A stretch of DNA of 64,000 nucleotides, from the NCBI RefSeq assembly GCF_024746795.1, contig NZ_CP080524.1, forward strand, positions 992,001 to 1,056,000. The letters run 5' to 3'. The translations under genes were made by a program, and so were the position numbers. Below the pieces are notes generated by a model. That model had not been told where the DNA came from and did no database searches. It was given only the letters and a program-made list of their open reading frames with translations. Shown piece by piece: positions 11,678 through 27,885 of this stretch (its first letter is position 1; every line of letters starts with the position of its first letter). Source of the stretch: Mesorhizobium sp. AR10 (GTDB taxonomy: Bacteria > Pseudomonadota > Alphaproteobacteria > Rhizobiales > Rhizobiaceae).

Positions 11678-12839
11678 GGGCCTGTTGCGTTACTAGGGTG
11701 GGAGGGCAAGAGGAGAAGTAAGGGCCAATTCGGAGTGCCCTTCGGCGCGGGCCTGTCGCCGGATGGGTTAGGGTTTGGCGTGTTGGGCGGATTTCGGGCG
11801 CAGTGCGGCCCTGGATCAGGTCGCCAGCGTCACCCAGCGGCGCATGTTGAAGGCCATGACGGCGATGAGAACCTGCCCAGCCGCCTTGGCCAAGCCGCGA
11901 TAGCGGATGGCGCGAAGCCGCATGCGGTTCTTCCATGTGGCAAAGGTGGTCTCGACAGCGAAACGCTGCCGCGCGATCAGCCGGTTGAAGCGCTGCAGGC
12001 GCGCCGGCAATTGCGGATGATGCTTGTTGGCCCGCCGCATCAGCCGCGGCTTGATCCCACGCTCCTTCAGCGACAACTCGCGCGCCTTGGTATGATAGGC
12101 CGCATCCGCCAACACCGCGCCTTCGTCGCCACAGATGAGATGGTCTGCTTCCACCGTGTCGTTGACGTTGGCCGCCGTCGTCCTCACCCGGCGGATCAGG
12201 CCGGACCCCTGGTCGACGCCGACATGCGCCTTGTAGCCATAGGAGGAGCCAGGCTTGCCCTGCCGGCGCGTGAAGCCGGCATCGGGATCGCCAGCCTCTT
12301 GCGCCGCTCCACTGGGCGGCCGTGCCGCTGCCGTCTCGATAACGGTGGCGTCGAGCATCGTGCCGCGCCGCAGGATCAGCCCCGCCTTGTCCAGCTGATG
12401 GTCCAGTTCGCCGAACAGCTTCTCCAGAAGCCCGGCCTCGACGAGAAGATTGCGAAAGCGGTTGAGCGTGGTGTGGTCGGGCACCGTCTCCTCGAGCGTC
12501 AGGCCGACGAAGCGCCGAAACGACAGCCGATCGGCGAGCGCCTCCTCCAACTCGCTGTCCGACAGCCCGTACAAGGACTGCAGAAGCAGTGCCTTGAACA
12601 TCACCAGCGAACTGTAGGCAGGACGGCCCGGGCCGCCGGGCGAGCGCAGCCGCGCCAGGATCTTCTCGAAGCGATACCACTTCACAAGCGACGACAGCCG
12701 GTCCAGCCGCCCGCTCCGACCAAGACCCTGCGGAAGCAGAGCCTCCACAAAACTGAACTGCCCGCTCGGCTTCGTCGTCATCGAACGATCCTCCTGTCAA
12801 AAACAGGGAATCACAACCAGCCAATTTTGCAACAGGCCC
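11678..12839 (-). mobile_element. IS5-family insertion sequence, copy 1 (1162 bp)
   Basis: One of four nearly identical copies. Both ends carry the inverted repeat GGGCCTGTTGC. It is inserted at the apex of a CTTCTCCC/GGGAGAAGG palindrome. This copy lacks a clean target duplication: the five bases on the left are CTTAG and on the right CTTGT. It belongs to the shorter subtype shared with copy 2 (no 9-bp internal insertion). Confidence 0.93.
11816..12781 (-). CDS. IS5-family transposase (copy 1)
   Basis: A 321-residue DDE transposase. The N-terminal DUF772-type region (YSSLVMFKALLLQSLYGLSD) and VPDHTTLNRFRN lead into the catalytic core: D144 in MLDATVIE, D226 in ADAAYHTK and E277 in VETTFATWK with the Y/W-spaced IS5 pattern. 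Intact, with an AGGAGGATCG ribosome site just before the start. Identical in protein sequence to copy 2 as far as I can see. Confidence 0.95.
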   Translation of the reverse strand: MTTKPSGQFSFVEALLPQGLGRSGRLDRLSSLVKWYRFEKILARLRSPGGPGRPAYSSLVMFKALLLQSLYGLSDSELEEALADRLSFRRFVGLTLEETVPDHTTLNRFRNLLVEAGLLEKLFGELDHQLDKAGLILRRGTMLDATVIETAAARPPSGAAQEAGDPDAGFTRRQGKPGSSYGYKAHVGVDQGSGLIRRVRTTAANVNDTVEADHLICGDEGAVLADAAYHTKARELSLKERGIKPRLMRRANKHHPQLPARLQRFNRLIARQRFAVETTFATWKNRMRLRAIRYRGLAKAAGQVLIAVMAFNMRRWVTLAT

Positions 12840-12972
12840 CTTGTGGGAGAAGGTGTCGCCGAAGGCGACGGATGAGGGGTGCTCCAGCTTGGCGCCGACA
12901 GAGATCCGTCCAACACCCCTCATCCGTCTCGGCGCTCCGCGCCGATCCACCTTCTCCCACAAGGGGAGAAGG
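12840..12972. repeat. REP-B unit 1, no gene inside
   Basis: Two inverted REP-B arms (about 12840-12881 and 12914-12972) with a 32-base spacer. Each arm has the outer CTTCTCCC/GGGAGAAGG palindrome, an inner small hairpin (GTCGCC-GGCGAC on one arm, GGCGC-GCGCC on the other) and GGATGAGGGGTG. The left apex is occupied by IS copy 1; the right apex at 12951-12972 is intact and shows the uninterrupted target with ACAAG at its centre. The spacer begins CTCCAGCTTGGCG and ends TCCGTCCAA, exactly the ends of the spacer in the nuclease-bearing unit at 23671-24217. Confidence 0.85.
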
Positions 12973-12985
12973 AAGGGGCGCTTTT

Positions 12986-15028: not shown

Positions 15029-15128
15029 GCTGGCGGCGGGTCCGGACAGATGAGGAATTTTGCTCCCCGCCCTTAACCGATACCGCCCCGCGGATAAAGG
15101 CGGGAGAGATGGGCCACCGAGGAGTTCG

Positions 15129-15175
15129 ATCTCCCCCCTCGTGGGGGAGATGGCCGGCAGGCCAGAGGGGGGCGC
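15129..15175. repeat. REP-C left arm
   Basis: A 47-bp repeat: a palindrome (ATCTCCCCCC to GGGGGAGAT) followed by CCGGCAGG and GAGGGGGGCGC. The arm at 15611-15657 is its inverted copy with two mismatches. The pair brackets the DUF559 gene at 15186-15572. Confidence 0.88.
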
Positions 15176-15185
15176 GAAGGATCGC

Positions 15186-15572
15186 CTACTTAGCCACGAC
15201 CTGAGGCGCCCCAGCCAGCCCGGCCGCAATCACAATATGCTGGCAGACATTGTCGATGTCGCGGATGATGTCGTCGTTCCAGAAGCGCAGGACGGTCCAG
15301 CCATCCTGTTCCAGACGCACTGTCCTCGCTTCGTCGCTGGCAACAGCACCGGCTTCCGTATGCTGGGAGCCGTCGACCTCGACGACAAGTTTTTTCTCCG
15401 GGCAAGCGAAGTCGACAATGTAACCGGCGATCGGAAATTGTCGCCGGAAGCCAAGCCCCATCAGCCAGTGCGCGCGAAGCTCGTTCCAGAGCTTCAATTC
15501 AGCTGATGTCATCACCTTGCGCATCGATCTGGCGTTTGCGCGATGTTTTGGAGGCAATGGCGTGTGAGGCAT
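15186..15572 (-). CDS. DUF559 endonuclease-like protein 1, inside REP-C pair
   Basis: A 128-residue single-domain protein of the DUF559 family (PD-(D/E)XK superfamily, related to very-short-patch repair endonucleases). Family pattern: RRQFPIAGYIVDFACPEKK, then LVVEVDGSQH (putative catalytic D, E/V-D and H), then GWTVLRFWNDDI. The biochemical role of stand-alone DUF559 proteins is not established. It lies 10 bases from the left REP-C arm and about 40 from the right one, so arms plus gene form a unit of about 530 bp. The ATG at 15572 is preferred to an in-frame TTG two codons earlier; no good ribosome site is seen. It shares about half its core residues with the second copy at 23761. Confidence 0.88.
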   Translation of the reverse strand: MPHTPLPPKHRANARSMRKVMTSAELKLWNELRAHWLMGLGFRRQFPIAGYIVDFACPEKKLVVEVDGSQHTEAGAVASDEARTVRLEQDGWTVLRFWNDDIIRDIDNVCQHIVIAAGLAGAPQVVAK

Positions 15573-15610
15573 TGTCAATGCTCGGTGGCTACCAGGGTTG
15601 GAGCTCTACG

Positions 15611-15657
15611 GCGCCCCCCTCTGTCCTGCCGGACATCTCCCCCACGAGGGGGGAGAT
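15611..15657. repeat. REP-C right arm, inverted
   Basis: Inverted copy of 15129-15175 (45 of 47 positions equal by eye). It lies between the start of the DUF559 gene and the 3' end of the small secreted protein gene. Confidence 0.88.
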
Positions 15658-15672
15658 TGGCAGCTCGGTCGC

Positions 15673-16044
15673 TCACGGCGTCAGGTCGATTTCCTCGGTC
15701 TCGCCGCCATCGCAGGTGTAGCAGCAGTCGTCGCATTTTTCCTTGTTGTTGGGGCCGACGCCCCAATAGGTTTCCTCGTCGCCGTCGACCCAGGCGCCGT
15801 AGCAGATCGACTCGCCCTCGTCGCAGGAAACCGGGATCTGCTTGGTCTCGCCATCATCGAGAAAAAAGTCCTTGCCATCTCCCGGCCAGACATAGTCGCG
15901 GTCCTGGCTGTAGAGTTCGAGGCGCATGGCGTTGGGATGGCTGTTCTTGATGGCAAAGGTGATGTCGGCCGCGTGCGCGGCCGGCGCAAACAGCGCGGCA
16001 AGAGAAAGCGCGACGACGATGCGGCGCGTGGATGTGAAAGACAT
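15673..16044 (-). CDS. small secreted Cys-rich protein, paralogue 1
   Basis: A 123-residue protein with a Sec signal peptide (hydrophobic stretch ending APAAHAAD). The mature part is acidic and has six cysteines in a fixed pattern: PVSCDEGESICYGAWV, then CDDCCYTC. The start follows GGGGG. A clear paralogue (18676-19023) shares VWPGD, SC..GE.ICYGAWV, GVGP and C..CC..C. I do not recognise the family; the cysteines suggest disulfides or a metal site in the periplasm or outside. The two paralogues are now separated by IS copies 2 and 3. Confidence 0.82.
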   Translation of the reverse strand: MSFTSTRRIVVALSLAALFAPAAHAADITFAIKNSHPNAMRLELYSQDRDYVWPGDGKDFFLDDGETKQIPVSCDEGESICYGAWVDGDEETYWGVGPNNKEKCDDCCYTCDGGETEEIDLTP

Positions 16045-16184
16045 GAAAACCCCCTGGGATGAGAATCGGCCGCCCGGCCGCGAGGGGAATCATTGCATGA
16101 TGTGTGGGAGGGCGGAAGCGATGATTGGGGGTATCCAACCCTGATTGGGGCGAGGCGGTGGTGCGCCTGACCTTCTCCCCTTGC

Positions 16185-17346
16185 GGGCCTGTTGCAAAAT
16201 TGGCTGGTTGTGATTCCCTGTTTTTGACAGGAGGATCGTTCGATGACGACGAAGCCGAGCGGGCAGTTCAGTTTTGTGGAGGCTCTGCTTCCGCAGGGTC
16301 TTGGTCGGAGCGGGCGGCTGGACCGGCTGTCGTCGCTTGTGAAGTGGTATCGCTTCGAGAAGATCCTGGCGCGGCTGCGCTCGCCCGGCGGCCCGGGCCG
16401 TCCTGCCTACAGTTCGCTGGTGATGTTCAAGGCACTGCTTCTGCAGTCCTTGTACGGGCTGTCGGACAGCGAGTTGGAGGAGGCGCTCGCCGATCGGCTG
16501 TCGTTTCGGCGCTTCGTCGGCCTGACGCTCGAGGAGACGGTGCCCGACCACACCACGCTCAACCGCTTTCGCAATCTTCTCGTCGAGGCCGGGCTTCTGG
16601 AGAAGCTGTTCGGCGAACTGGACCATCAGCTGGACAAGGCGGGGCTGATCCTGCGGCGCGGCACGATGCTCGACGCCACCGTTATCGAGACGGCAGCGGC
16701 ACGGCCGCCCAGTGGAGCGGCGCAAGAGGCTGGCGATCCCGATGCCGGCTTCACGCGCCGGCAGGGCAAGCCTGGCTCCTCCTATGGCTACAAGGCGCAT
16801 GTCGGCGTCGACCAGGGGTCCGGCCTGATCCGCCGGGTGAGGACGACGGCGGCCAACGTCAACGACACGGTGGAAGCAGACCATCTCATCTGTGGCGACG
16901 AAGGCGCGGTGTTGGCGGATGCGGCCTATCATACCAAGGCGCGCGAGTTGTCGCTGAAGGAGCGTGGGATCAAGCCGCGGCTGATGCGGCGGGCCAACAA
17001 GCATCATCCGCAATTGCCGGCGCGCCTGCAGCGCTTCAACCGGCTGATCGCGCGGCAGCGTTTCGCTGTCGAGACCACCTTTGCCACATGGAAGAACCGC
17101 ATGCGGCTTCGCGCCATCCGCTATCGCGGCTTGGCCAAGGCGGCTGGGCAGGTTCTCATCGCCGTCATGGCCTTCAACATGCGCCGCTGGGTGACGCTGG
17201 CGACCTGATCCAGGGCCGCACTGCGCCCGAAATCCGCCCAACACGCCAAACCCTAACCCATCCGGCGACAGGCCCGCGCCGAAGGGCACTCCGAATTGGC
17301 CCTTACTTCTCCTCTTGCCCTCCCACCCTAGTAACGCAACAGGCCC
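16185..17346 (+). mobile_element. IS5-family insertion sequence, copy 2 (1162 bp)
   Basis: Ends are GGGCCTGTTGC inverted repeats, flanked by a 5-bp duplication CTTGC (16180-16184 and 17347-17351). Removing the element and one duplicate restores a CTTCTCCCC/GGGAGAAGG hairpin, the left apex of REP-B unit 2. Short subtype, same as copy 1. The exact ends are ambiguous by one or two bases because of flanking G/C runs. Confidence 0.94.
16243..17208 (+). CDS. IS5-family transposase (copy 2)
   Basis: A 321-residue DDE transposase, intact, same as copy 1 at protein level. D144, D226 and E277 form the catalytic triad. An AGGAGGATCG ribosome site precedes the ATG. It reads towards copy 3, so a transcript could cover both elements. 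Confidence 0.95.
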   Translation: MTTKPSGQFSFVEALLPQGLGRSGRLDRLSSLVKWYRFEKILARLRSPGGPGRPAYSSLVMFKALLLQSLYGLSDSELEEALADRLSFRRFVGLTLEETVPDHTTLNRFRNLLVEAGLLEKLFGELDHQLDKAGLILRRGTMLDATVIETAAARPPSGAAQEAGDPDAGFTRRQGKPGSSYGYKAHVGVDQGSGLIRRVRTTAANVNDTVEADHLICGDEGAVLADAAYHTKARELSLKERGIKPRLMRRANKHHPQLPARLQRFNRLIARQRFAVETTFATWKNRMRLRAIRYRGLAKAAGQVLIAVMAFNMRRWVTLAT

Positions 17347-17472
17347 CTTGCGGGAGAAGGTGGATCGGCGCGCAGCGCCGAGACGGATGAGGGGTGTTGG
17401 ACGGAATGAGGCGTCGGCGCCAAGCTGGAACACCCCTCATCCGTCGCCTTCGGCGACACCTTCTCCCACAAG
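17347..17472. repeat. REP-B unit 2, both apices carrying IS copies
   Basis: The inverse of REP-B unit 1 (12840-12972), nearly identical along its full length. Arms at about 17347-17396 and 17431-17472, spacer of 34 bases with the same conserved ends (TTCCAGCTTGGCG and TCCGTCCAA read on the minus strand). IS copy 2 sits in the left palindrome apex and IS copy 3 in the right one, so the whole unit is left as an island between two elements. Confidence 0.85.
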
Positions 17473-18643
17473 GGGCCTGTTGCAAAATTGGCTGGTTGTG
17501 ATTCCCTGTTTTTGACAGGAGGATCGTTCGATGACGACGAAGCCGAACGGGCAATTCAGTTTTGTGGAGGCTCTGCTTCCGCAGGGTCTTGGTCGGAGCG
17601 GGCGGCTGGACCGGCTGTCGTCGCTTGTGAAGTGGTATCGCTTCGAGAAGATCCTGGCGCGGCTGCGCTCGCCCGGCGGCCCGGGCCGTCCTGCCTACAG
17701 TTCGCTGGTGATGTTCAAGGCACTGCTTCTGCAGTCCTTGTACGGGCTGTCGGACAGCGAGTTGGAGGAGGCGCTCGCCGATCGGCTGTCGTTTCGGCGC
17801 TTCGTCGGCCTGACGCTCGAGGAGACGGTGCCCGACCACACCACGCTCAACCGCTTTCGCAATCTTCTCGTCGAGGCCGGGCTTCTGGAGAAGCTGTTCG
17901 GCGAACTGGACCATCAGCTGGACAAGGCGGGGCTGATCCTGCGGCGCGGCACGATGCTCGACGCCACCGTTATCGAGACGGCAGCGGCACGGCCGCCCAG
18001 TGGAGCGGCGCAAGAGGCCGGCGAGGCTGGCGATCCCGATGCCGGCTTCACGCGCCGGCAGGGCAAGCCTGGCTCCTCCTATGGCTACAAGGCGCATGTC
18101 GGCGTCGACCAGGGGTCCGGCCTGATCCGCCGGGTGAGGACGACGGCGGCCAACGTCAACGACACGGTGGAAGCAGACCATCTCATCTGTGGCGACGAAG
18201 GCGCGGTGTTGGCGGATGCGGCCTATCATACCAAGGCGCGCGAGTTGTCGCTGAAGGAGCGTGGGATCAAGCCGCGGTTGATGCGGCGGGCCAACAAGCA
18301 TCATCCGCAATTGCCGGCGCGCCTGCAGCGCTTCAACCGGCTGATCGCGCGGCAGCGTTTCGCTGTCGAGACCACCTTTGCCACATGGAAGAACCGCATG
18401 CGGCTTCGCGCCATCCGCTATCGCGGCTTGGCCAAGGCGGCTGGGCAGGTTCTCATCGCCGTCATGGCCTTCAACATGCGCCGCTGGGTGACGCTGGCGA
18501 CCTGATCCAGGGCCGCACTGCGCCCGAAATCCGCCCAACACGCCAAACCCTAACCCATCCGGCGACAGGCCCGCGCCGAAGGGCACTCCGAATTGGCCCT
18601 TACTTCTCCTCTTGCCCTCCCACCCTAGTAACGCAACAGGCCC
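17473..18643 (+). mobile_element. IS5-family insertion sequence, copy 3 (1171 bp)
   Basis: Same GGGCCTGTTGC ends. The left flank is ACAAG and the right flank CTTAA, so there is no matching duplication. Its right flank resembles the left flank of copy 1 (CTTAG), which hints at recombination between copies or a composite insertion. It belongs to the longer subtype with a 9-bp insertion (GCCGGCGAG), like copy 4. Confidence 0.92.
17531..18505 (+). CDS. IS5-family transposase (copy 3)
   Basis: A 324-residue DDE transposase, intact. It differs from copies 1 and 2 by three extra residues near position 164 (an AGE/EAG repeat) and by Asn for Ser at position 6. The catalytic triad is kept (third residue numbering shifted by three). 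Confidence 0.95.
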   Translation: MTTKPNGQFSFVEALLPQGLGRSGRLDRLSSLVKWYRFEKILARLRSPGGPGRPAYSSLVMFKALLLQSLYGLSDSELEEALADRLSFRRFVGLTLEETVPDHTTLNRFRNLLVEAGLLEKLFGELDHQLDKAGLILRRGTMLDATVIETAAARPPSGAAQEAGEAGDPDAGFTRRQGKPGSSYGYKAHVGVDQGSGLIRRVRTTAANVNDTVEADHLICGDEGAVLADAAYHTKARELSLKERGIKPRLMRRANKHHPQLPARLQRFNRLIARQRFAVETTFATWKNRMRLRAIRYRGLAKAAGQVLIAVMAFNMRRWVTLAT

Positions 18644-18675
18644 CTTAAGGGGGAGAAGGGAAGAGCGCGCCGGCG

Positions 18676-19023
18676 CTACTCCACCAGATCGATCGTCTCG
18701 GTCGTCTTCTCCACGCAGATGAAGCAGCAATTGTCACACGGCTGGTCGTTGTCCGGGCCGACGCCGGCGGAGATGTTGTCCTGGCCGTTGACCCAGGCGC
18801 CGTAGCAGATGTTTTCGCCTGAATTGCAGGAGATCGGCACTGATTTCTGCGAGTTCGGCTCGATCAGGAACACCTGGTCGTCGCCCGGCCACACCGTCTT
18901 GCGGTCGCGGCTGAACAGCTCGACGGCCACCGATTGCTGCCGCAGGTTCTTCATGAAGAAGGCCATCTCGGCGGCATGGGTGGGGGTGGCGAGGAGAAGG
19001 GCAACAAGGGTGAGGCGAATCAT
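18676..19023 (-). CDS. small secreted Cys-rich protein, paralogue 2
   Basis: A 115-residue protein with a signal peptide (LVALLLATPTHAAE). It shares with paralogue 1 the blocks VWPGDD, PISCNSGENICYGAWV, GVGPDND and CDNCCFIC, the six-cysteine pattern, and a TETIDL end. Family not recognised. Probably an old tandem duplication, since both genes have the same strand and end next to repeats, and IS copies 2 and 3 lie between them. Confidence 0.82.
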   Translation of the reverse strand: MIRLTLVALLLATPTHAAEMAFFMKNLRQQSVAVELFSRDRKTVWPGDDQVFLIEPNSQKSVPISCNSGENICYGAWVNGQDNISAGVGPDNDQPCDNCCFICVEKTTETIDLVE

Positions 19024-19054
19024 GGCGTCGATCCAAAATCGATCACTCGCATGA

Positions 19055-19564
19055 TTAGCCGCTGACCACCACCTGCGGCGCCAGCCGCTTGATCGCCGCG
19101 ATCATGTCGGCGCCGCTCATGTCGAGCGAGGATATCTCCATATGGACGATGTTCCTGCCGAAGGGCAGCAAGCGGCCGAGCGCATTGGCCGGCGCGTACC
19201 TGATGGCCTTGGGTGGCTCCTCGGTCAGCTCGAAGCTGATCATCGCCGAGCCCTTGCCGGAGGTGAGGCGCACGCTGCGCACCTTCTCCCAGGGCACCAG
19301 CACGTCGCCGCCGCGCCGGTCGCGAAAGCCCTTGGCATCGATCACCACCTGGACGCTGGTGTCGAACGCACCGCGCGCGATGACCAGACCAAATCCCAGG
19401 CAGCCAAGCGCCAGCACCGTTACCCAAAGCACCCCACGGCCCGGCGCGCCTGACGCGAGCCCCTTGAGCGCGAAGAAGCCGAAGATCGCTGCGAGCAGGA
19501 ACGGCCCGAGCGCGGGAAAGATCTTCCCGATGGGGCTGTTGCGGAGGTCGATTGGGGCGGACAT
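19055..19564 (-). CDS. STM3941-like membrane protein with PH-like domain
   Basis: A 169-residue protein with two hydrophobic helices (about 16-33 and 43-63) followed by a soluble region: VVIDAKGFRDRR, then LVPWEKVRSVRL, a pattern of bacterial PH-like domain membrane proteins. Role unknown. It sits just upstream (minus strand) of the secreted paralogue 2, about 30 bases away, and may share its transcript. Confidence 0.72.
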   Translation of the reverse strand: MSAPIDLRNSPIGKIFPALGPFLLAAIFGFFALKGLASGAPGRGVLWVTVLALGCLGFGLVIARGAFDTSVQVVIDAKGFRDRRGGDVLVPWEKVRSVRLTSGKGSAMISFELTEEPPKAIRYAPANALGRLLPFGRNIVHMEISSLDMSGADMIAAIKRLAPQVVVSG

Positions 19565-19666
19565 GGGAAAAGTGAAGCGGAATGCGGGGGAGGTGTTGAG
19601 GGTGTTCTCTGTCCCGAAACTCTAGAAGGCGCGTTTGGTTCTACCGCGCCTTCTATCTTGAAACGA

Positions 19667-19879
19667 TCATTTTTCGAGCCGGCGGCAGAATCGGTCTAAC
19701 TGAGTTGCTGACCCACTTATCTCCAGCCCTTGCGCAGTTTTCTTGGCTGTGGCGCCAGCTGAAATTGCTGCGTTTCTTATGTTTCGTTCGATCACAGACG
19801 CGACGTCCAGTTGGACAGATTGCATCATCGAACGGGCGGACGAAAATGAACGGCCTTTATATTTGAACGAAATGCCCAT
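19667..19879 (-). CDS. small hypothetical protein, 70 aa
   Basis: Starts at ATG 19879 behind a perfect GGAGG. Sequence begins MGISFKYKGRSFSS and ends FCRRLEK; no domain recognised. It looks soluble, basic and helical. It is the third gene of a small minus-strand cluster (DUF1508, DUF2188, this) divergent from an XRE/ImmA pair. The frame upstream of the ATG overlaps the DUF2188 gene and is not used. Confidence 0.68.
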   Translation of the reverse strand: MGISFKYKGRSFSSARSMMQSVQLDVASVIERNIRNAAISAGATAKKTAQGLEISGSATQLDRFCRRLEK

Positions 19880-19889
19880 GGTGGCCTCC

Positions 19890-20114
19890 TTAGCCTTTGG
19901 GTAGATGCGGGTCGTGCCCGTGTGAATCGCGCTCGCGAATCTGGCCGTTCCGGCCATGCACGAGCAACTCCGTGCCTTGATTGCGGGCGATTCCGCGCCC
20001 GGCGTCGATTGCCGCCTTTTGGGTCTCGTGCACCGAAGACGCGCGTTGTGCGCCCGCACCCTTAACTGCCCAGCCGCCAGAATGTGGCACGACGTGTTGG
20101 TTACGCTTTGTCAT
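19890..20114 (-). CDS. DUF2188 family protein
   Basis: A 74-residue protein. The pattern NQHVVPHSGGWAVKGAGAQRAS, here seen as NQHVVPH then GGWAVKG, followed by TQKAAIDAGRGIARNQGTEL and HGRNGQIRERDSHG, is DUF2188, a small family of unknown role found in many proteobacteria and often beside DUF1508 proteins. ATG 20114 follows AAGGA. Probably cotranscribed with its two neighbours. Confidence 0.8.
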   Translation of the reverse strand: MTKRNQHVVPHSGGWAVKGAGAQRASSVHETQKAAIDAGRGIARNQGTELLVHGRNGQIRERDSHGHDPHLPKG

Positions 20115-20173
20115 TTTCAATTCCTTATCTGAAAGTTGACCCCGGTGCCGGTTGGCGCCGGGTGTCACCACCA

Positions 20174-20554
20174 CTAAGCAGCTTTCGAAGACGTCTCATC
20201 GTCAACCGGCGCGCCGGCTGCATTGTATTTTACGGATTCGGCGCAGCTCTTGGCGTTGTGCTTCGCCGTGTACTCCTCCGACCACACCAGCGTTTCACCG
20301 TTCTGCGCCTTGAAACGGATGAAATACTGGTTGTCCTTGGAGAGTAGGATTTCGAAGCGAGCGCCGGTCGTCGCCTCGCCGATGGTCGTATCGACGATCG
20401 GGGCATAGAGCGCGTTCGCTTTGACCGAATTGATACAGTTCTGAGCGCTGGCCTTCGCGGTGTAATTTTCCGACCAAACCATCACCTGACTGCCGTACAC
20501 AAACTGGACGCGGTACTGGCCATTCGCGGCGTCCTTGATTTTGAAACGGTACAT
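20174..20554 (-). CDS. tandem DUF1508 (YegP-type) protein
   Basis: A 126-residue protein made of two DUF1508 repeats of about 55 residues. Each has a strand-rich block (GQYRVQFVYG; NQYFIRFKAQNGE) followed by VWSENYTAK or VWSEEYTAK and A.. C..SVK.NA. Family role unknown; YegP of E. coli is of the same fold. GGAGAGGG precedes the ATG. First gene of the divergent cluster next to the XRE gene, so it may be under the same control. Confidence 0.85.
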   Translation of the reverse strand: MYRFKIKDAANGQYRVQFVYGSQVMVWSENYTAKASAQNCINSVKANALYAPIVDTTIGEATTGARFEILLSKDNQYFIRFKAQNGETLVWSEEYTAKHNAKSCAESVKYNAAGAPVDDETSSKAA

Positions 20555-20641
20555 TTCCCTCTCCTTTCAAAGTGAGGAAGATTGCATTGGATATCCGCCT
20601 TGGGAGGTCGAATGTCCGACGCTCTCATGTCACGTATCCTG

Positions 20642-20672
20642 TTGTCAAGATAGCTGACGACAGTATATCTGT
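20642..20672 (+). promoter_or_regulatory. candidate promoter/operator of the XRE-ImmA pair
   Basis: TTGTCA (20642-20647) and TATATC (20664-20669) are 16 bases apart. A short palindrome, ACAG-TATAT-CTGT (20660-20672), overlaps the -10 box. It could be an autoregulatory site for the XRE protein, and lies between two divergent units. Confidence 0.42.
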
Positions 20673-20750
20673 TGAAAGATCGCGTACGAATCCTTGACGC
20701 AAATCAGGTTCGAAGATATGCTCGCGTCGCCAGCGCGAAGGGGTATGCTC

Positions 20751-21062
20751 ATGTCCGAGGAATTATATACTGAGATCGGAAAGAGGATAAGGAGCATCAG
20801 GGAGGACAAACTTCGGGCAACTCAAGAAGATATTGCGAAGAGGCTTGGGATTTCGCGCCCGTCTGTGGCCAATTTTGAGAACGGCAAGCAGCAGATGACC
20901 GTAGCTCAGCTGATGTCGTTCTCTAATGTACTTGGGGTTTCTCCCATAGATCTTCTGCCCTTGGTTGAGAGCAAAACCGGGTCCGAACGATTGTCACGAT
21001 CCCTACCTAGCCATTTTGACCCGAAACTTCGTGCATGGGTGGACACCCTGCAAGGCCGCTAA
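20751..21062 (+). CDS. XRE-family helix-turn-helix regulator
   Basis: A 103-residue protein from ATG 20751 (AAGGGG 7 bases upstream; a TTG at 20694 would add 19 residues). The HTH is at about residues 8-65: IGKRIRSIRE, then ATQEDIAKRLGISRPSVANFENGKQQMT. Paired with a downstream ImmA/IrrE peptidase three bases past its stop, the arrangement seen in ImmR-ImmA of ICEBs1 and in many toxin-antitoxin-like and phage repressor loci, where the peptidase cleaves the repressor. Base composition is lower in GC than the surroundings, which suggests transfer. Confidence 0.9.
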   Translation: MSEELYTEIGKRIRSIREDKLRATQEDIAKRLGISRPSVANFENGKQQMTVAQLMSFSNVLGVSPIDLLPLVESKTGSERLSRSLPSHFDPKLRAWVDTLQGR

Positions 21063-21064
21063 AC

Positions 21065-21625
21065 ATGAAATCTCCGAAACTTTGGCTCAGGGCAGAGCAG
21101 GTACAGAAGATTCGTAAGACTGCTCTAGAACTGCTTCGAAGAGTTCATTACGTCGGCGGTGTTGTGCCGGTTGATCGTGCCGCACATGAACTTGGGGCGT
21201 CTATCCGCTATGCGCCCTACGATGGTGAACTGGCGGGAATGCTTATTCGAAACGGAAGCGAATCTATCATCGCGGTCAATTCTGCCCATCATAAGAACCG
21301 TCAGAGATTCACTATCGCTCATGAATGTGGGCACCTATGCCTGCACTCTGACAATCTATATGTGGATAAGAACTTCTTTGTACTCAATCGAGACGATCGA
21401 TCTTCGAACGCCGATGACATAAAAGAGATAGAGGCCAACCAATTTGCCGCTGAATTGCTAATGCCGTTCCCAAATATTTTTCGGGATTTGAGATCAAGTA
21501 AAATTGACCTTGAGGACGAACAGCAGATATCAAATGTCGCTAAGCTGTACGGCGTAAGCGTCCAAGCCATGACATATCGGGTTGCTAACTTGTTTATGAT
21601 CCAGCGGGTTGAGCGACCCAAATAG
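21065..21625 (+). CDS. ImmA/IrrE family metallo-endopeptidase
   Basis: A 186-residue protein with the zinc motif HECGH in FTIAHECGHLCLH (about residues 93-105) and a downstream glutamate region EIEANQFAAELLMP, the third ligand block of the family. It ends with a short winged region (VAKLYGVSVQAMTYRV). Starts two bases after the XRE stop, so the two are translated together. Expected role: cleavage of the XRE repressor in response to an unknown signal. AT-richer than the flanks. Confidence 0.9.
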   Translation: MKSPKLWLRAEQVQKIRKTALELLRRVHYVGGVVPVDRAAHELGASIRYAPYDGELAGMLIRNGSESIIAVNSAHHKNRQRFTIAHECGHLCLHSDNLYVDKNFFVLNRDDRSSNADDIKEIEANQFAAELLMPFPNIFRDLRSSKIDLEDEQQISNVAKLYGVSVQAMTYRVANLFMIQRVERPK

Positions 21626-21716
21626 CCGACTCAAAACCAGCAGAACACTATTCTGCGGCTCCAGTGCTGTGCGCCGCGTAGATACCCGACGAGTCACCAC
21701 ACTGCCGCAACCCCCG

Positions 21717-21786
21717 GGGTGGGACCCGCTGCCTCCGGCAGCTCCCACCCGGACTTGCGCTCGCATCGACCCACCGGGTCGATGCG
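21717..21786. terminator. double hairpin between convergent immA and lepA
   Basis: Two strong stem-loops: GGGTGGGA pairs with TCCCACCC (21717-21750, with an inner GCTGCC/GGCAGC), and CGCATCGACCC pairs with GGGTCGATGCG around ACC (21762-21786). No T tract follows, so the function as terminator is an inference from position between convergent genes. Confidence 0.5.
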
Positions 21787-21807
21787 TTCGGCCAGAGGCC
21801 GGACCGC

Positions 21808-23613
21808 TTAGTCCCCCATCTTCAGCGCCTGAATAAAAGCCTCCTGCGGGATATCCACCTTGCCGAACTGCCGCATGCGCTTCTTGCCCTCTTTCTGCTT
21901 GTCGAGCAGCTTGCGCTTGCGCGAGACGTCGCCGCCATAGCACTTGGCGGTGACATCCTTGCGCAGCGCCGAGATGGTCTCGCGGGCGATGACCTTGCCG
22001 CCGATGGCAGCCTGGATCGGGATCTTGAACAGATGGTTCGGGATCAGCTCCTTCAGCTTCTCGCACATCTGGCGGCCGCGCTTTTCGGCCGCCGTGCGGT
22101 GGACCAGCATCGACAGCGCGTCGACCGGCTCCTCGTTGACCAGGATCGACATCTTCACCAGGTCGCCTTCCTTGTAGTCGGTCAGGTGATAGTCGAAGGA
22201 AGCGTAGCCCTTGGAGATCGACTTCAACCGGTCGTAAAAATCGAAGACCACCTCGTTGAGCGGCAGGTCGTAGATGAGCATGGCGCGCTTGCCGACATAG
22301 GACAGGTCGGCCTGGATGCCGCGCCTATCCTGGCAGAGCTTCAGGATGCCGCCGAGATAGTCGTCCGGCGAAAGGATGGTGGCGCGGATCCATGGCTCCT
22401 CGATGGCTGAAATCTTGACCACGTCGGGCATGTCGGCCGGGTTGTGCAGTTCCTTCATCGAGCCGTCGGTCAACAGCAGCCGGTAGACGACCGAGGGCGC
22501 GGTGGCGATGAGGTCGAGGTTGAACTCGCGCTCCAGCCGCTCCTGGATGATTTCCAGATGCAAGAGGCCAAGGAAGCCGCAGCGATAGCCGAAGCCGAGC
22601 GCGGCACTGGTTTCCATCTCATAGGAGAAGCTGGCGTCGTTGAGGCGCAATTTGCCGACGGCGGCGCGCAGATCCTCGAAATCGGCGGCGTCGACCGGGA
22701 ACAGGCCGCAGAACACCACCGGCTGCGCCGGCTTGAAGCCGGGCAGCGCCTTTGCCGTCTGGCGCTTGTCCTCGGTGATGGTGTCGCCGACGCGGGTGTC
22801 GGCCACTTCCTTGATCGAGCCGGTGAAGAAGCCGAACTCGCCGGGGCCGAGCTCGTCGACATTGATGCGGGCCGGCGTGAACACGCCGGTGCGCTCGACC
22901 AGGTGCTTGGCGCCGGTGCCCATCATGCGGATGGTCTGGCCCTTCTTCAGCACGCCGTCGATGATGCGCACCAGCACGATGACGCCGAGATAGGCGTCGT
23001 ACCAGCTATCGACCAGCATGGCTTTCAAAGGAGCGGTCGCATCGCCTTCGCGCGGCGGCGGCAATTGGTGGACGATGGCCTCCAGCACATCGGGAATGCC
23101 CAGGCCGGTCTTGGCCGAGATCAGCACGGCGTTGGAGGCGTCGATGCCGATGACTTCCTCGACCTGCTCGCGGATGCGCTCGGGCTCGGCGGCTGGCAGG
23201 TCGACCTTGTTCAGCACCACGACGATCTCGTGGTTGTTGTCGATAGCCTGGTAGACATTGGCCAGCGTCTGCGCCTCGACGCCCTGGCTCGCGTCGACGA
23301 CCAGCAGCGAACCCTCGCAGGCGGCGAGCGACCGCGACACTTCATAGGCGAAGTCGACATGGCCGGGCGTGTCGATCAAATTGAGGATATAGTCCTCGCC
23401 ATTGTTGGCGCGGTATTTCAGCCGCACCGTCTGCGCCTTGATGGTGATGCCGCGCTCGCGCTCGATGTCCATCGAGTCCAGCACCTGCTCCTTCATGTCG
23501 CGCAGCTCCAGCCCGCCGGTGGACTGGATCAGCCGGTCGGCAAGCGTGGATTTGCCATGGTCGATATGGGCGACGATGGAGAAATTGCGGATATGGTCGA
23601 GGGGCGTGCTCAT
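21808..23613 (-). CDS. lepA: elongation factor 4 (back-translocase)
   Basis: A 601-residue translational GTPase. G1 reads AHIDHGKST (residues 15-23), G2 region [12 protein letters not shown]3 DTPGHVDF, G4 NKVD. The C-terminal EF4-specific domain ([12 protein letters not shown] region, [15 protein letters not shown]) identifies LepA rather than EF-G. Binds stalled 70S ribosomes. Start ATG 23613 gives the family length of about 600. A REP-B cassette with a DUF559 gene follows upstream of it. Confidence 0.97.
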
Positions 23614-23670
23614 GCCGGGCGCTTTAGCAGGGGCGGGTTGCAGGGGCAAGCGGGGCGGGGGCGCCCTTCC

Positions 23671-23728
23671 CTTCTCCCCTTGTGGGAGAAGGTGGATCGG
23701 CGCGCAGCGCCGAGACGGATGAGGGGTG
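23671..23728. repeat. REP-B unit 3, left arm
   Basis: A 58-bp arm: palindrome CTTCTCCCC/GGGAGAAGG with intact apex, inner hairpin GGCGCG-CGCGCC-type, then GAGACGGATGAGGGGTG. The next bases (CTCCAGCTTGGCG) match the spacer starts of REP-B units 1 and 2. Its inverse is at 24168-24217. Confidence 0.88.
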
Positions 23729-23760
23729 CTCCAGCTTGGCGTCGACGAGAGACGGAGCCG

Positions 23761-24132
23761 TCAACGCCACGGCTGCAAGCTCGCATCTCTTGCATAGGCG
23801 ATGATCGTATCGCAGACGGCGTTCAAGTCTCTCAGGACATCTTCGTTCCAGAAACGCAGCACGCGAAAGCCCATCGCTTTCAACTCAACCCCGCGGATGC
23901 GGTCGGAGTCCGAGTCCGCGTGCTGGCTGCCGTCGATCTCAATGATCAATCCGGCTTCGAGGCAGACAAAATCAGCGATGTACTTTCCGACAGGCACCTG
24001 TCGCCGGAATTTTATCCGATCGAGCCTGCGGTCACGCAGTTCATGCCACAGTCTGTCTTCCGCTTCCGTCATGTCGCGCCGAAGGGAGCGGGCAAAGCTA
24101 CGTTTGGCTGGCGGGACTGGCTGGTGTGGCAT
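23761..24132 (-). CDS. DUF559 endonuclease-like protein 2, inside REP-B pair
   Basis: A 123-residue single-domain DUF559 protein: RRQVPVGKYIADFVCLEAG, LIIEIDGSQH and FRVLRFWNEDV carry the PD-(D/E)XK-like core. Similar throughout to the copy at 15186 but clearly diverged. Its start ATG (24132) is about 35 bases from the right REP-B arm and its stop about 30 from the left arm, so the arms and gene form a cassette of about 550 bp. Substrate unknown. The location inside a repeat rather than in an operon is the point of interest. Confidence 0.88.
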   Translation of the reverse strand: MPHQPVPPAKRSFARSLRRDMTEAEDRLWHELRDRRLDRIKFRRQVPVGKYIADFVCLEAGLIIEIDGSQHADSDSDRIRGVELKAMGFRVLRFWNEDVLRDLNAVCDTIIAYARDASLQPWR

Positions 24133-24167
24133 TGGCGTAGATTAACCAGCCGTTGCACTCCGTCCAA

Positions 24168-24217
24168 CACCCCTCATCCGTCTCGGCGCTGCGCGCCGAT
24201 CCACCTTCTCCCACAAG
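24168..24217. repeat. REP-B unit 3, right arm (apex interrupted by IS copy 4)
   Basis: Inverted copy of the left arm, identical over about 50 bp. The spacer before it ends TCCGTCCAA as in units 1 and 2. The palindrome is split at its apex by IS copy 4 and continues at 25389-25402 (ACAAG then GGGAGAAGG). Confidence 0.88.
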
Positions 24218-25388
24218 GGGCCTGTTGCAAAATTGGCTGGTTGTGATTCCCTGTTTTTGACAGGAGGATCGTTCGATGACGACGAAGCCGAGCGGGCAGT
24301 TCAGTTTTGTGGAGGCTCTGCTTCCGCAGGGTCTTGGTCGGAGCGGGCGGCTGGACCGGCTGTCGTCGCTTGTGAAGTGGTATCGCTTCGAGAAGATCCT
24401 GGCGCGGCTGCGCTCGCCCGGCGGCCCGGGCCGTCCTGCCTACAGTTCGCTGGTGATGTTCAAGGCACTGCTTCTGCAGTCCTTGTACGGGCTGTCGGAC
24501 AGCGAGTTGGAGGAGGCGCTCGCCGATCGGCTGTCGTTTCGGCGCTTCGTCGGCCTGACGCTCGAGGAGACGGTGCCCGACCACACCACGCTCAACCGCT
24601 TTCGCAATCTTCTCGTCGAGGCCGGGCTTCTGGAGAAGCTGTTCGGCGAACTGGACCATCAGCTGGACAAGGCGGGGCTGATCCTGCGGCGCGGCACGAT
24701 GCTCGACGCCACCGTTATCGAGACGGCAGCGGCACGGCCGCCCAGTGGAGCGGCGCAAGAGGCCGGCGAGGCTGGCGATCCCGATGCCGGCTTCACGCGC
24801 CGGCAGGGCAAGCCTGGCTCCTCCTATGGCTACAAGGCGCATGTCGGCGTCGACCAGGGGTCCGGCCTGATCCGCCGGGTGAGGACGACGGCGGCCAACG
24901 TCAACGACACGGTGGAAGCAGACCATCTCATCTGTGGCGACGAAGGCGCGGTGTTGGCGGATGCGGCCTATCATACCAAGGCGCGCGAGTTGTCGCTGAA
25001 GGAGCGTGGGATCAAGCCGCGGCTGATGCGGCGGGCCAACAAGCATCATCCGCAATTGCCGGCGCGCCTGCAGCGCTTCAACCGGCTGATCGCGCGGCAG
25101 CGTTTCGCTGTCGAGACCACCTTTGCCACATGGAAGAACCGCATGCGGCTTCGCGCCATCCGCTATCGCGGCTTGGCCAAGGCGGCTGGGCAGGTTCTCA
25201 TCGCCGTCATGGCCTTCAACATGCGCCGCTGGGTGACGCTGGCGACCTGATCCAGGGCCGCACTGCGCCCGAAATCCGCCCAACACGCCAAACCCTAACC
25301 CATCCGGCGACAGGCCCGCGCCGAAGGGCACTCCGAATTGGCCCTTACTTCTCCTCTTGCCCTCCCACCCTAGTAACGCAACAGGCCC
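24218..25388 (+). mobile_element. IS5-family insertion sequence, copy 4 (1171 bp)
   Basis: GGGCCTGTTGC ends with a perfect 5-bp duplication ACAAG (24213-24217 and 25389-25393). Removal restores CTTCTCCC, ACAAG, GGGAGAAGG, identical to the intact apex at 12951-12972. Long subtype, as copy 3. It ends about 160 bases upstream of msrA and reads towards it. Confidence 0.95.
24276..25250 (+). CDS. IS5-family transposase (copy 4)
   Basis: A 324-residue intact DDE transposase of the long subtype (three extra residues near 164), with Ser at position 6 as in copies 1 and 2. Read-through from this gene could reach msrA, since both face the same way. Confidence 0.95.
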   Translation: MTTKPSGQFSFVEALLPQGLGRSGRLDRLSSLVKWYRFEKILARLRSPGGPGRPAYSSLVMFKALLLQSLYGLSDSELEEALADRLSFRRFVGLTLEETVPDHTTLNRFRNLLVEAGLLEKLFGELDHQLDKAGLILRRGTMLDATVIETAAARPPSGAAQEAGEAGDPDAGFTRRQGKPGSSYGYKAHVGVDQGSGLIRRVRTTAANVNDTVEADHLICGDEGAVLADAAYHTKARELSLKERGIKPRLMRRANKHHPQLPARLQRFNRLIARQRFAVETTFATWKNRMRLRAIRYRGLAKAAGQVLIAVMAFNMRRWVTLAT

Positions 25389-25546
25389 ACAAGGGGAGAA
25401 GGGAGGAAGGTGCGCAATCACGAAGCGGTGAGCACTGTAACGAAACCCCACATGGCGGCGAAGTGTGGGTAGGACCGGCGCACGGCAAAGTGACACGCCG
25501 GCGCCCCTATATGTCGTATAGTCAAACACCATTTGGGAGATCAGAC

Positions 25547-26275
25547 ATGACCGGATCCGCAAAACGATCGGCAAGCTTTGCCAAGGGCGCGCTTGCAGCC
25601 CTCATCCTGGCGGCGGCGGGTGCTGCCTTCTGGCAGAGCCCTGCGATCTCGGCCGAGGATGCGGTGGTGATCCCGCCGCCGGCGATCGACGAGAAGGCCT
25701 CCAGCGGCACCGAAAAGGCGATCTTTGCCGGCGGCTGCTTCTGGGGCGTGCAGGGGGTGTTCCAGCACGTCAAGGGCGTGACCAGCGCTGTCTCCGGCTA
25801 TGCCGGCGGGACCAAGGACACCGCGGTCTACGAGACTGTCGGCAGCGGCCGCACCGGCCATGCCGAAGCCGTCGAGATCACCTATGAGCCGTCCAAGATC
25901 ACCTATGGCCAGCTGCTGCAGGTGTATTTCTCGGTGGCGCACAACCCGACGCAGCTGAACTACCAGGGCCCGGACAGGGGCACGCAGTATCGCTCGACGA
26001 TCTTTGCCGAAAACGACGCGCAAAAGAAGATCGCCGAGAGCTACATCGCCCAGCTCGACCAGGCCAAGGTGTTCGCCAAGCCGATCGTGACCACGCTGGA
26101 GACGGGGAAAACCTTCTACCAGGCCGAGGACTACCACCAGGACTTTTTGACCCTGAACCCGACCTATCCCTACATCGTCTACAACGACCTGCCCAAGGTG
26201 GCGAATTTGAAGCAGCTGTTTCCGACGCTGTATAGCGACAAGCCGGTGCTGGTGCTGGCGGCGAACAAGAGCTGA
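25547..26275 (+). CDS. msrA: peptide-methionine (S)-S-oxide reductase, exported form
   Basis: A 242-residue MsrA. An N-terminal hydrophobic segment (about 12-36, ending SPAISAED) suggests export or membrane anchoring, so it probably repairs oxidised methionine in periplasmic proteins. The catalytic motif GCFWG has Cys64; GYAGG, GRTGHAEAVE and FSVAHNPTQLNYQGPDRG are standard MsrA blocks. GGGAG precedes the ATG at 25547. An open frame continues far upstream into the IS but has no start signal. No msrB is fused or adjacent. Confidence 0.94.
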   Translation: MTGSAKRSASFAKGALAALILAAAGAAFWQSPAISAEDAVVIPPPAIDEKASSGTEKAIFAGGCFWGVQGVFQHVKGVTSAVSGYAGGTKDTAVYETVGSGRTGHAEAVEITYEPSKITYGQLLQVYFSVAHNPTQLNYQGPDRGTQYRSTIFAENDAQKKIAESYIAQLDQAKVFAKPIVTTLETGKTFYQAEDYHQDFLTLNPTYPYIVYNDLPKVANLKQLFPTLYSDKPVLVLAANKS

Positions 26276-26706
26276 TGTGGAAAAGTGGGGACGGGCAGCG
26301 ATGCCCTCCCTCCCTTCGTCATCCTAGGGCGGAGCAAGGAGCGAAGCGACGCGGCGCAGACCCTAGGATCCATGCCGTGACAGTGGCGCAGTGCTCCGGC
26401 CGTGCAAGAAACCGCGCGCCACCAACCCGTTCCACGAAAGAGCTCAAACCACTCCGGATTGGCCTTTTCGATTGCCTCGATCTTCCATTGCCGCGGCCAG
26501 CGCTTCAATGACTTCTCGCGCTGGATGGCATCGGTGATGTCGAAATATTCCTCGTACCAGACCAGCCGCTGTACATTGTAGCGACTGGTGAAACGTGAGC
26601 CCTGGCCGGCCTTGTGCTCCGGCATTCGACGGCCGAGATCGTTGGTGACGCCGATATAGATCGTGCCACGCTTCTGGCTTGCGGTCATATAGACGTAGCC
26701 GGTCAT
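26179..26706 (-). CDS. GIY-YIG nuclease-domain protein, inside REP-D pair
   Basis: From ATG 26706, MTGYVYMTAS then GTIYIGVTNDLGRR is the GIY-YIG signature (here VYM...YIG), followed by the catalytic arginine and EKSLKRWPRQWKIEAIEK, as in the small UvrC/YhbQ-like family (usual length about 90-100). The domain ends near residue 95 (FRGTGW). The open frame then reads on through the left REP-D arm (visible as HGMDPRVCAASLRSL) and into the antisense of msrA, ending at 26179; this tail is probably a result of a lost stop codon and not a domain. An alternative start is 26763. Single-domain GIY-YIG proteins of this type have no settled function. Confidence 0.8.
   Translation of the reverse strand: MTGYVYMTASQKRGTIYIGVTNDLGRRMPEHKAGQGSRFTSRYNVQRLVWYEEYFDITDAIQREKSLKRWPRQWKIEAIEKANPEWFELFRGTGWWRAVSCTAGALRHCHGMDPRVCAASLRSLLRPRMTKGGRASLPVPTFPHQLLFAASTSTGLSLYSVGNSCFKFATLGRSL
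26314..26381. repeat. REP-D left arm (68 bp)
   Basis: A 68-bp sequence whose exact inverse is at 26776-26843. It contains two CCTAGG-type sixmers near both ends (ATCCTAGGGC and ACCCTAGGATC) and CGGCGCAGA. By eye all 68 positions match the other arm. The pair brackets the GIY-YIG gene. Confidence 0.9.
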
Positions 26707-26775
26707 GGGTTCAGTGGTAGCGAGCGTAGGTGAGCGTACAAGCGTAATTCTGATCCGTTGCATTCTAGGGCAAAT

Positions 26776-26843
26776 GTCACGGCATGGATCCTAGGGTCTG
26801 CGCCGCGTCGCTTCGCTCCTTGCTCCGCCCTAGGATGACGAAG
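26776..26843. repeat. REP-D right arm, perfect inverse of left arm
   Basis: Exact inverted copy of 26314-26381. It lies between the GIY-YIG start and the 3' end of cydB. The absence of mismatches suggests recent formation or active gene conversion. Confidence 0.9.
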
Positions 26844-26880
26844 GCACGGTAGCTGCCGCCACTTTCACCCCCGCCATCCC

Positions 26881-27885
26881 TCAATCATACGTCAAATCCG
26901 TCGCCTTGCCGCCGAAGACGCGGTAGGCATAGAACGAATAGAAGATGATGACCGGCAGCACGACGACCGTGCCGGCCAGGATGATGGCGAGGCTTTCGGG
27001 CGCTGCGGCGGCCTGCCAGATGGTCAGCTTGTCGGGCACGACGAAGGGGTAGAACGACCAGGCCAGGCCGGCAAAGCCGAGCGTGAAGATGGCGGCCAGC
27101 GTCAGGAACGGCGTCAGCGCGCCACGATCGTTCGGCTTCGGCAGATGGAAGGTCTGCCGCCACAGCCAGGCGAACAGCACCGCCGACAGGATCGGCAGCG
27201 GCGACAGATAGAGCATTTCAGGCCAGAGGAACCATTTGTCGAAGATGCGCGGGCTGGCAAAGGGCGTGGCCAGCGAGACGGCCGCCATGCCGAGTGCAGC
27301 CACCACCAGCGCCGTGCGCAGCCAAAGCACCGCCTTCTTCTGCAATTCGCCTTCGGTCTTGTAGATGACCCAGGCCGCGCCCATCGCCGCATAGGCCGCG
27401 GCAAGGCAGAACGCCACCAGCGCGCCGAAGGCCATGCCGCCCAGTCCGACATCAAGGCCGAGCACATAGACGCCGAGCATATAGCCCTGCGCCAGGGAGG
27501 CGATGATCGAACCGAGGAAGAAGATGCGGTTCCAGCGGTGCTTCTTGCCGGCCGGCACCTTGGCGCGAAAATCGAAGGCGACGCCGCGCAGGATGAGCCC
27601 GACCAAAAGCACGAAGACCGGAATGTAGAGCGCGGTGAGGATGGTGCCGTGTGCCTGCGGGAAGGCGACCAGCAGCAGACCGACAGCCAGCACCAGCCAG
27701 GTCTCGTTGGCGTCCCAGAACGGACCGATGGCCGCGATCATCGTATCCTGCTCGGCATCGTCGGCGAAAGAAAACAGGATGCCGATGCCGAGGTCGAAGC
27801 CGTCCAGCACAACGTAGATCAGGATGGCGAGGCCCATCAGGCCGGCGAAGATCAGGGGGAGCAAGGTCGGCCAGTCGAGGGTCAT
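26881..27885 (-). CDS. cydB: cytochrome bd ubiquinol oxidase subunit II
   Basis: A 334-residue membrane protein with about eight to nine helices. It starts with the family pattern ILIYVVLDGFDLGIGIL, and has GPFWDANETWLV and an ILRGVAFDFR motif. Subunit II of the bd-type (cyanide-insensitive CIO branch) quinol oxidase, in the inner membrane. It begins about 10 bases after cydA, so the two are one operon. No cydX or cydCD genes are seen here. Confidence 0.96.
   Translation of the reverse strand: MTLDWPTLLPLIFAGLMGLAILIYVVLDGFDLGIGILFSFADDAEQDTMIAAIGPFWDANETWLVLAVGLLLVAFPQAHGTILTALYIPVFVLLVGLILRGVAFDFRAKVPAGKKHRWNRIFFLGSIIASLAQGYMLGVYVLGLDVGLGGMAFGALVAFCLAAAYAAMGAAWVIYKTEGELQKKAVLWLRTALVVAALGMAAVSLATPFASPRIFDKWFLWPEMLYLSPLPILSAVLFAWLWRQTFHLPKPNDRGALTPFLTLAAIFTLGFAGLAWSFYPFVVPDKLTIWQAAAAPESLAIILAGTVVVLPVIIFYSFYAYRVFGGKATDLTYD

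Follow-up and report, generated by a model that had tools for sequence, protein, structure and literature searches.

The stretch of DNA analysed here (the window; 64,000 nucleotides of Mesorhizobium sp. AR10, contig NZ_CP080524.1, positions 992,001 to 1,056,000) carries three short nuclease genes, each lying between inverted copies of a short repeat resembling the repetitive extragenic palindromes (REPs) of bacteria (Table 1). This layout, two DUF559 genes and one GIY-YIG gene between inverted repeats, had been claimed in the original prediction, made from the letters alone, and was confirmed by arm comparison and Pfam: the two DUF559 genes matched PF04480 (E 1e-37 and 3e-38) and the third gene matched the GIY-YIG family PF01541 (E 7e-16). 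In the present analysis the C-type DUF559 gene ends at 15578, and the REP-D arms, described as perfect 68-bp copies, are 80 nt long and 95% complementary, with a 70-nt core at 100%. The predicted fold of the C-type DUF559 protein matches 3hrl, I-Bth0305I and Vsr and is of the Vsr-type PD-(D/E)XK kind with conserved acidic residues. Fold-comparison matches ranking below Vsr were set aside, and very weak ones to unrelated toxin chains (E 0.05–0.3) were disregarded. The open frame of the GIY-YIG gene (26179–26763, 194 codons) crosses its own 3' arm and reaches the end of msrA, compared with shorter frames of about 98 codons in many relatives.

Table 1 Nuclease genes, repeat arms and gene-less doublets in the window
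Feature	Position	Strand	Remarks
REP-C left arm	15129..15175	+	47 nt; tail faces gene; from inverted-repeat comparison
DUF559 (Vsr-like) nuclease gene, C type	15186..15578	-	PF04480; predicted fold
REP-C right arm	15611..15657	-	47 nt; arms 96% complementary
REP-B left arm	23670..23735	+	full 66-nt unit; 23676-23728 is the 53-nt paired part
DUF559 nuclease gene, B type	23761..24132	-	PF04480
REP-B right arm	24168..24220	-	53 nt; 100% complementary to left arm; interrupted by insertion sequence at 24221
REP-B right-arm remnant	25386..25402	-	17 nt; past the insertion sequence
REP-D left arm	26308..26387	+	CGTC tag, ATCCTAGGG stem, long loop, CCCTAGGAT, CCA tail
Single-domain GIY-YIG nuclease gene, conserved part	26420..26706	-	PF01541; open frame 26763 to 26179
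REP-D right arm	26770..26849	-	80 nt; arms 95% complementary; 70-nt core 100%
Gene-less inverted REP-B doublet (REPIN-like)	12837..12972		
Second gene-less inverted REP-B doublet	17344..17475		flanked by two insertion-sequence copies

Four of the five short DUF559 genes in this 6.9-Mb genome are bracketed, with four different arm families, and next to the fifth a REP-C doublet stands on just one of the two sides (a sixth Pfam match, within a frame of 1997 codons, was excluded from the count). The three repeat families of the window had been taken as unrelated. This holds for REP-D, which is a CGTC-type REP, but B and C share one architecture: the arms of families B, C, E and F have in common a C-rich hairpin, a second GC-rich part and a G-rich tail facing the gene, and the layout of REP-D differs from it. 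No GTAG was found at the ends of the B and C consensus units, and REP-D starts with CGTC. According to the accessible part of the survey by Di Nocera, De Gregorio and Rocco (2013; PMC3733652), the CGTC REPs occur mostly in alphaproteobacteria, include the neisserial dRS3, and consist of a CGTC tag, an 8–9 bp stem starting with A, a loop and a CCA tail, the loop being usually 4–5 nt with other lengths in some species; they 'apparently lack a dedicated transposase'. REP-D fits this definition (CGTC or TGTC/CCTC tag, stem, tail) except for its long loop, because it reads CGTC-ATCCTAGGG-loop-CCCTAGGAT-CCA, with a 9-bp stem starting with AT and a loop of about 28 nt; like the surveyed repeats it forms inverted doublets and, unlike them, it comes with an enzyme candidate. 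Judged by its sequence, REP-D belongs with this already described superfamily of REPs that had no enzyme assigned to them.

To score bracketing, the 300-bp stretches on either side of each nuclease domain were compared and their strongest inverted match was taken, with a threshold of ≥18; windows slid along the same loci, not other short genes, served as the control. The original prediction implied that such nuclease genes would be enriched between inverted repeats, and they were, strongly, in genus, class, phylum and 80-locus samples. Inverted arms within 300 bp were found at 69 of 118 DUF559 domains of the genus and in 2 of 2855 slid windows; this set includes the window's own genome and 80 regions added from further places among the matches listed, and leaves out 3 of 121 domains with a flank of <100 bp on one side. 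The DUF559 arm scores were bimodal (19–144, or ≤13), and the arms started mostly 4–60 bp before and 14–87 bp after the domain. Inverted arms within 350 bp accompany 28 of 30 single-domain GIY-YIG genes of the genus (the window's own and 29 of the best-scoring; a count without slid control). A larger sample, the best 80 of at least 577 GIY-YIG loci, gave 55/80 against 0/820 slid windows; because it is ordered by likeness to the query (35 of the 80 at ≥77% identity), it is weighted to Mesorhizobium. The class and phylum samples consist of the best-scoring loci and are not random; in the class, 14 of 30 GIY-YIG loci had inverted arms. The slid-window controls rule out chance or general repeat density as the source of the bracketing, and so does the rarity of the 30-nt REP-B core (five copies with ≤3 mismatches in the genome), taken with the counts for DUF559 and for the 80 GIY-YIG loci.

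The two nucleases go with different repeats, DUF559 with CTCCC/GGGAG and GIY-YIG with CGTC/TGTC. A CTCCC-hairpin-GGGAG unit was found on at least one side of 26/30 class and 21/24 phylum DUF559 genes, with 11 and 12 of them, respectively, having it on both sides (controls for both sides 0/89 and 0/70); it stood on neither side of any of the 30 class GIY-YIG genes. Conversely, no strict CGTC REP was found beside 172 DUF559 domains (118 + 30 + 24), and a CGTC-type REP lay ≤180 bp from 29/30 genus GIY-YIG genes (control 2/118). Among the 80 GIY-YIG loci, 66 had a CGTC/TGTC-type REP within 300 bp on at least one side and 40 on both sides, compared with 36 and 2 of 820 control windows. The 45 more distant loci of this sample (55–68% identity) include 27 armed ones, 32 with a REP on at least one side and 17 with REPs on both. 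The sample contains metagenome-assembled genomes labelled Deltaproteobacteria, Chloroflexi, Omnitrophota, Parcubacteria and Uhrbacteria. When 10 named GIY-YIG loci out of 36 records were inspected, nine had such a REP within 300 bp, seven of them on both sides; Neisseria gonorrhoeae, Rhizobium, Azospirillum lipoferum and Sphingobium are among these, and the Novosphingobium aromaticivorans locus had none within that distance. On the tree of the 118 DUF559 domains, built from few columns and with many forks open, the arm families need 18 changes as against 60.2 when shuffled, with one change each for families F, H and K (F with weak support).

Whole GIY-YIG elements recur within genomes. Nineteen of the 21 copies retrieved from five genomes have arms. 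Within a genome these armed elements share 75–93% identity, and the sequences outside them show no relation in almost every one of 34 pairs (scores 6–16, one 25). Occupied and empty orthologous sites, the comparison suggested in the original prediction, are present at the window's own GIY-YIG site, elsewhere, and between Sphingobium plasmids. The 532-bp element at the msrA-cydB site is absent from 10/10 genomes with both flanks aligned, the comparison resolving 10 of 29 other loci; the empty sites hold a REP-C doublet (5), a single REP-C (1), a solo REP-D (1) or none of these (3). At a C-element site (L196), another genome has a gene-less inverted doublet with matching outer ends. Of the 11 Sphingobium plasmid records with both flanks of the fnrL site, 7 are occupied and 4 empty (4 of the 7 occupied records were aligned and the other 3 match one of these at 100%). 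Two of the empty sites have a single palindrome from the same family, the third has a CTCTCTCC..GGGGAGAG-type repeat and the fourth a different hairpin. Empty sites with a solo REP, as in Sphingobium, fit the pattern of homing endonucleases. The occupied/empty pairs support mobility, and each is compatible with either gain or loss of the element. One intergenic site in related Sphingobium plasmids (L308–L311) carries repeats of different families, hence such sites may be shared hot spots. Insertion into pre-existing palindromes was rejected as a general origin of the arms, since an inverted extension past the REP was found in only 6/39 D elements (cross-element null 3.8%). It is kept as a special case, for example at L046 (~1326–1915), where a GIY-YIG/REP-D element is nested inside an inverted REP-C-like pair.

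We therefore read each locus as a small REPtron-like mobile element whose enzyme is a homing-type nuclease, and give this reading a probability of about 0.7. It agrees with the original prediction of compact mobile or self-maintaining elements akin to RAYT-REP or homing elements; spread driven by cutting would be its mechanistic core. The element would consist of a repeat arm, a nuclease gene and an inverted repeat arm, about 0.4–0.6 kb in all, each arm being a short palindromic REP of the family paired with that nuclease, and gene-less inverted doublets and solo REPs would be its non-autonomous forms. Most probably the nuclease would recognise the hairpin typical of its REPs and nick or cut there, either within the element or at a REP or hairpin serving as target; host repair would then fill the break with a copy of arm-gene-arm or of a doublet. 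Such intragenomic homing would play for these REPs a role akin to that supposed for the REP-associated tyrosine transposases (RAYTs) and GTAG REPs, and two unrelated nucleases would have adopted it, the Vsr-like DUF559 protein for CTCCC/GGGAG and the GIY-YIG protein for CGTC/TGTC repeats. The wider proposal, that two unrelated homing-type nucleases are the dedicated engines of large palindrome superfamilies, spreading units, doublets and solo REPs by hairpin cutting and repair as a transposase-free mobile class, seems to us an even bet.

The closest known systems are the REPtrons, i.e. RAYT (TnpA-REP) genes with their REPINs, as presented in the accessible parts of PMC3116915, PMC2817692 and PMC3733652. 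The likeness is that inverted REPs flank an intergenic gene, that gene-less inverted doublets occur elsewhere and that the gene clade tracks the repeat family; the difference is that a DUF559 or GIY-YIG enzyme stands in place of the Y1 HUH transposase, and that the GTAG tag is absent. The elements thus work like a REPtron and are not REPtrons by membership, because both the Y1 transposase and the tag are missing. With regard to insertion sequences and miniature inverted-repeat transposable elements, the arms here enclose nuclease genes and no DDE transposase gene. In comparison with the Vsr-fold homing endonuclease I-Bth0305I (PDB 3r3p), which is intronic, the genes described here are intergenic, between inverted REPs. 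Homing endonucleases of the GIY-YIG type exist as well, and differ from the GIY-YIG elements here, which are intergenic and occupy many sites per genome.

An alternative without any movement is that the nucleases are ordinary host DNA-repair enzymes, acting in Vsr-like mismatch repair or hairpin processing, and that the REPs are terminators or insulators. Two mainly unarmed DUF559 clades of the genus speak for it, as does E. coli ycjD, a DUF559 gene between sapF and fabI (L296, 2501–3036) which is unbracketed. Caulobacter VsrA (CCNA_02930), a DUF559 protein that is Vsr-like and active in the cell, is described as a putative mismatch repair enzyme at methylated motifs, and the accessible part of that report (PMC12907096) mentions no flanking repeats, unlike the bracketed genes here. 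We nevertheless regard this alternative as unlikely, since complete GIY-YIG elements are found repeatedly at unrelated places of a single genome, empty sites exist, and each nuclease family tracks its own repeat family and not hairpins generally. Directly 3' of E. coli ycjD lies a CCCTCTCCC-type inverted doublet, and the region is covered to ≥80% in 3362 of 5426 complete genomes; as a clean empty-site case ycjD failed, for the three inspected strains lacking it have other genes after sapF.

The repeats might instead owe their spread to a different enzyme, either a RAYT or the transposase of an insertion sequence, with the nuclease gene a mere passenger between the arms. In the window, three near-identical DDE insertion sequences (transposase genes 16243–17208, 17531–18505 and 24276–25250; termini CCTGTTGC..GCAACAGG) lie within REP-B units, which makes REP-B an insertion target as well and lends the passenger explanation some support, and matches to the RAYT family PF01797 were found in 15 of 81 genus genomes. 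PF01797 had no match in the window's genome or in 66 of the 81, so that a RAYT as the driver is unsupported in this genome, and the accessible part of PMC3733652 reports only a few fortuitous cases of transposase genes flanked by CGTC repeats. Sorting by nuclease family would not be expected of a passenger, nor would the purifying selection under which the nuclease genes were found (their proteins were taken from open frames, hence in-frame stops could not appear). This explanation is accordingly rather improbable.

Within families, gene and arm divergence are correlated for D (Mantel rho 0.535, p 0.001) and C (0.335, p 0.017), and in D elements the arms of the same element are closer than those of different elements (0.959 vs 0.901). 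The idea that arms match best within their own element was rejected, as this was so for only 8/40 D, 2/21 C and 4/30 B elements (B trimming may be out of register). The REP-D core is present in 0 to 199 copies per genome (81 genomes). A nuclease that polices its own REP family by cutting cruciforms or extra copies, or that makes the repeat addictive, without spreading it, would account for genomes with many REP-D copies and no short GIY-YIG gene among the matches listed. Vsr-like and GIY-YIG enzymes can indeed process unusual DNA structures. Policing is nonetheless very improbable, as the REP-D number climbs with the GIY-YIG number, the opposite of what it predicts, and as gene and arms recur as a unit. 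That correlation (rho 0.49) ignores kinship; the GIY-YIG numbers for the 'strong' list that goes with it were read by eye among the matches listed.

Several observations weigh against nuclease-driven mobility, beginning with the neglect of kinship just noted. The REP-D-rich genomes G026 (61 copies), G041 (59) and G063 (49) show only UvrC-sized GIY-YIG proteins among the matches listed; they are either relics after nuclease loss or cases of another driver. In family B the Mantel test was not significant (rho 0.08, p 0.25), so the expected agreement of nuclease phylogeny with arm family stands for the tree and fails for the finer correlation in B, and the likeness of same- and different-element arms hardly differs in B (0.756/0.746) or C (0.911/0.909). 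Unarmed domains make up 49 of the 118 in the genus DUF559 set; two clades account for 38 of these, which makes it probable that host genes are among them. A strict CGTC REP (strict regular expression) was found at only 4/30 class GIY-YIG loci, fewer than have inverted arms, hence the class-wide arms include other palindromes. The two CTCTCCC-type repeats that flank the DUF559 gene of Neisseria gonorrhoeae are direct rather than inverted copies. Duplication to unrelated sites was demonstrated for GIY-YIG elements only. Many elements occupy the same site in several species, and part of the gene-arm agreement is therefore shared ancestry. Target-site duplications and exact insertion boundaries were unreadable in the diverged occupied/empty pairs. 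Strand joining is not known as an activity of GIY-YIG or Vsr-like enzymes, and cleavage, excision and movement were not observed in this analysis, which was of sequences alone.

REPs are widespread dispersed repeats of bacteria, and those with a GTAG tag have an associated enzyme, the RAYT. The enzyme for CGTC REPs was left open by the 2013 survey, as far as its accessible part goes (PMC3733652). The single-domain GIY-YIG protein is a direct, testable candidate for it in alphaproteobacteria, Neisseria and a few metagenome-assembled genomes that carry the labels of other phyla; if it is the right one, the CGTC REPs would gain the enzyme so far missing. With DUF559, which shows this layout with another repeat superfamily, nucleases between repeats would be a solution reached more than once, and many genes annotated as 'endonuclease domain-containing protein' would be given a function. 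The recurrence of the GIY-YIG gene together with its repeats at new places in the genome suggests an overlooked route of repeat spread. No literature linking GIY-YIG or DUF559 genes to REPs was found in a search whose coverage left out preprints and most subscription journals, and the accessible parts of PMC12306157 and PMC5082802 mention neither nuclease.

As to the remaining sequence around the three loci, Rfam gave three matches in 12500–27500, every one far under the gathering score, and PADLOC gave weak partial matches only. The small gene 15673–16044 had no Pfam match; it and another small gene, 18676–19023, match each other with 45% identity (tblastn).

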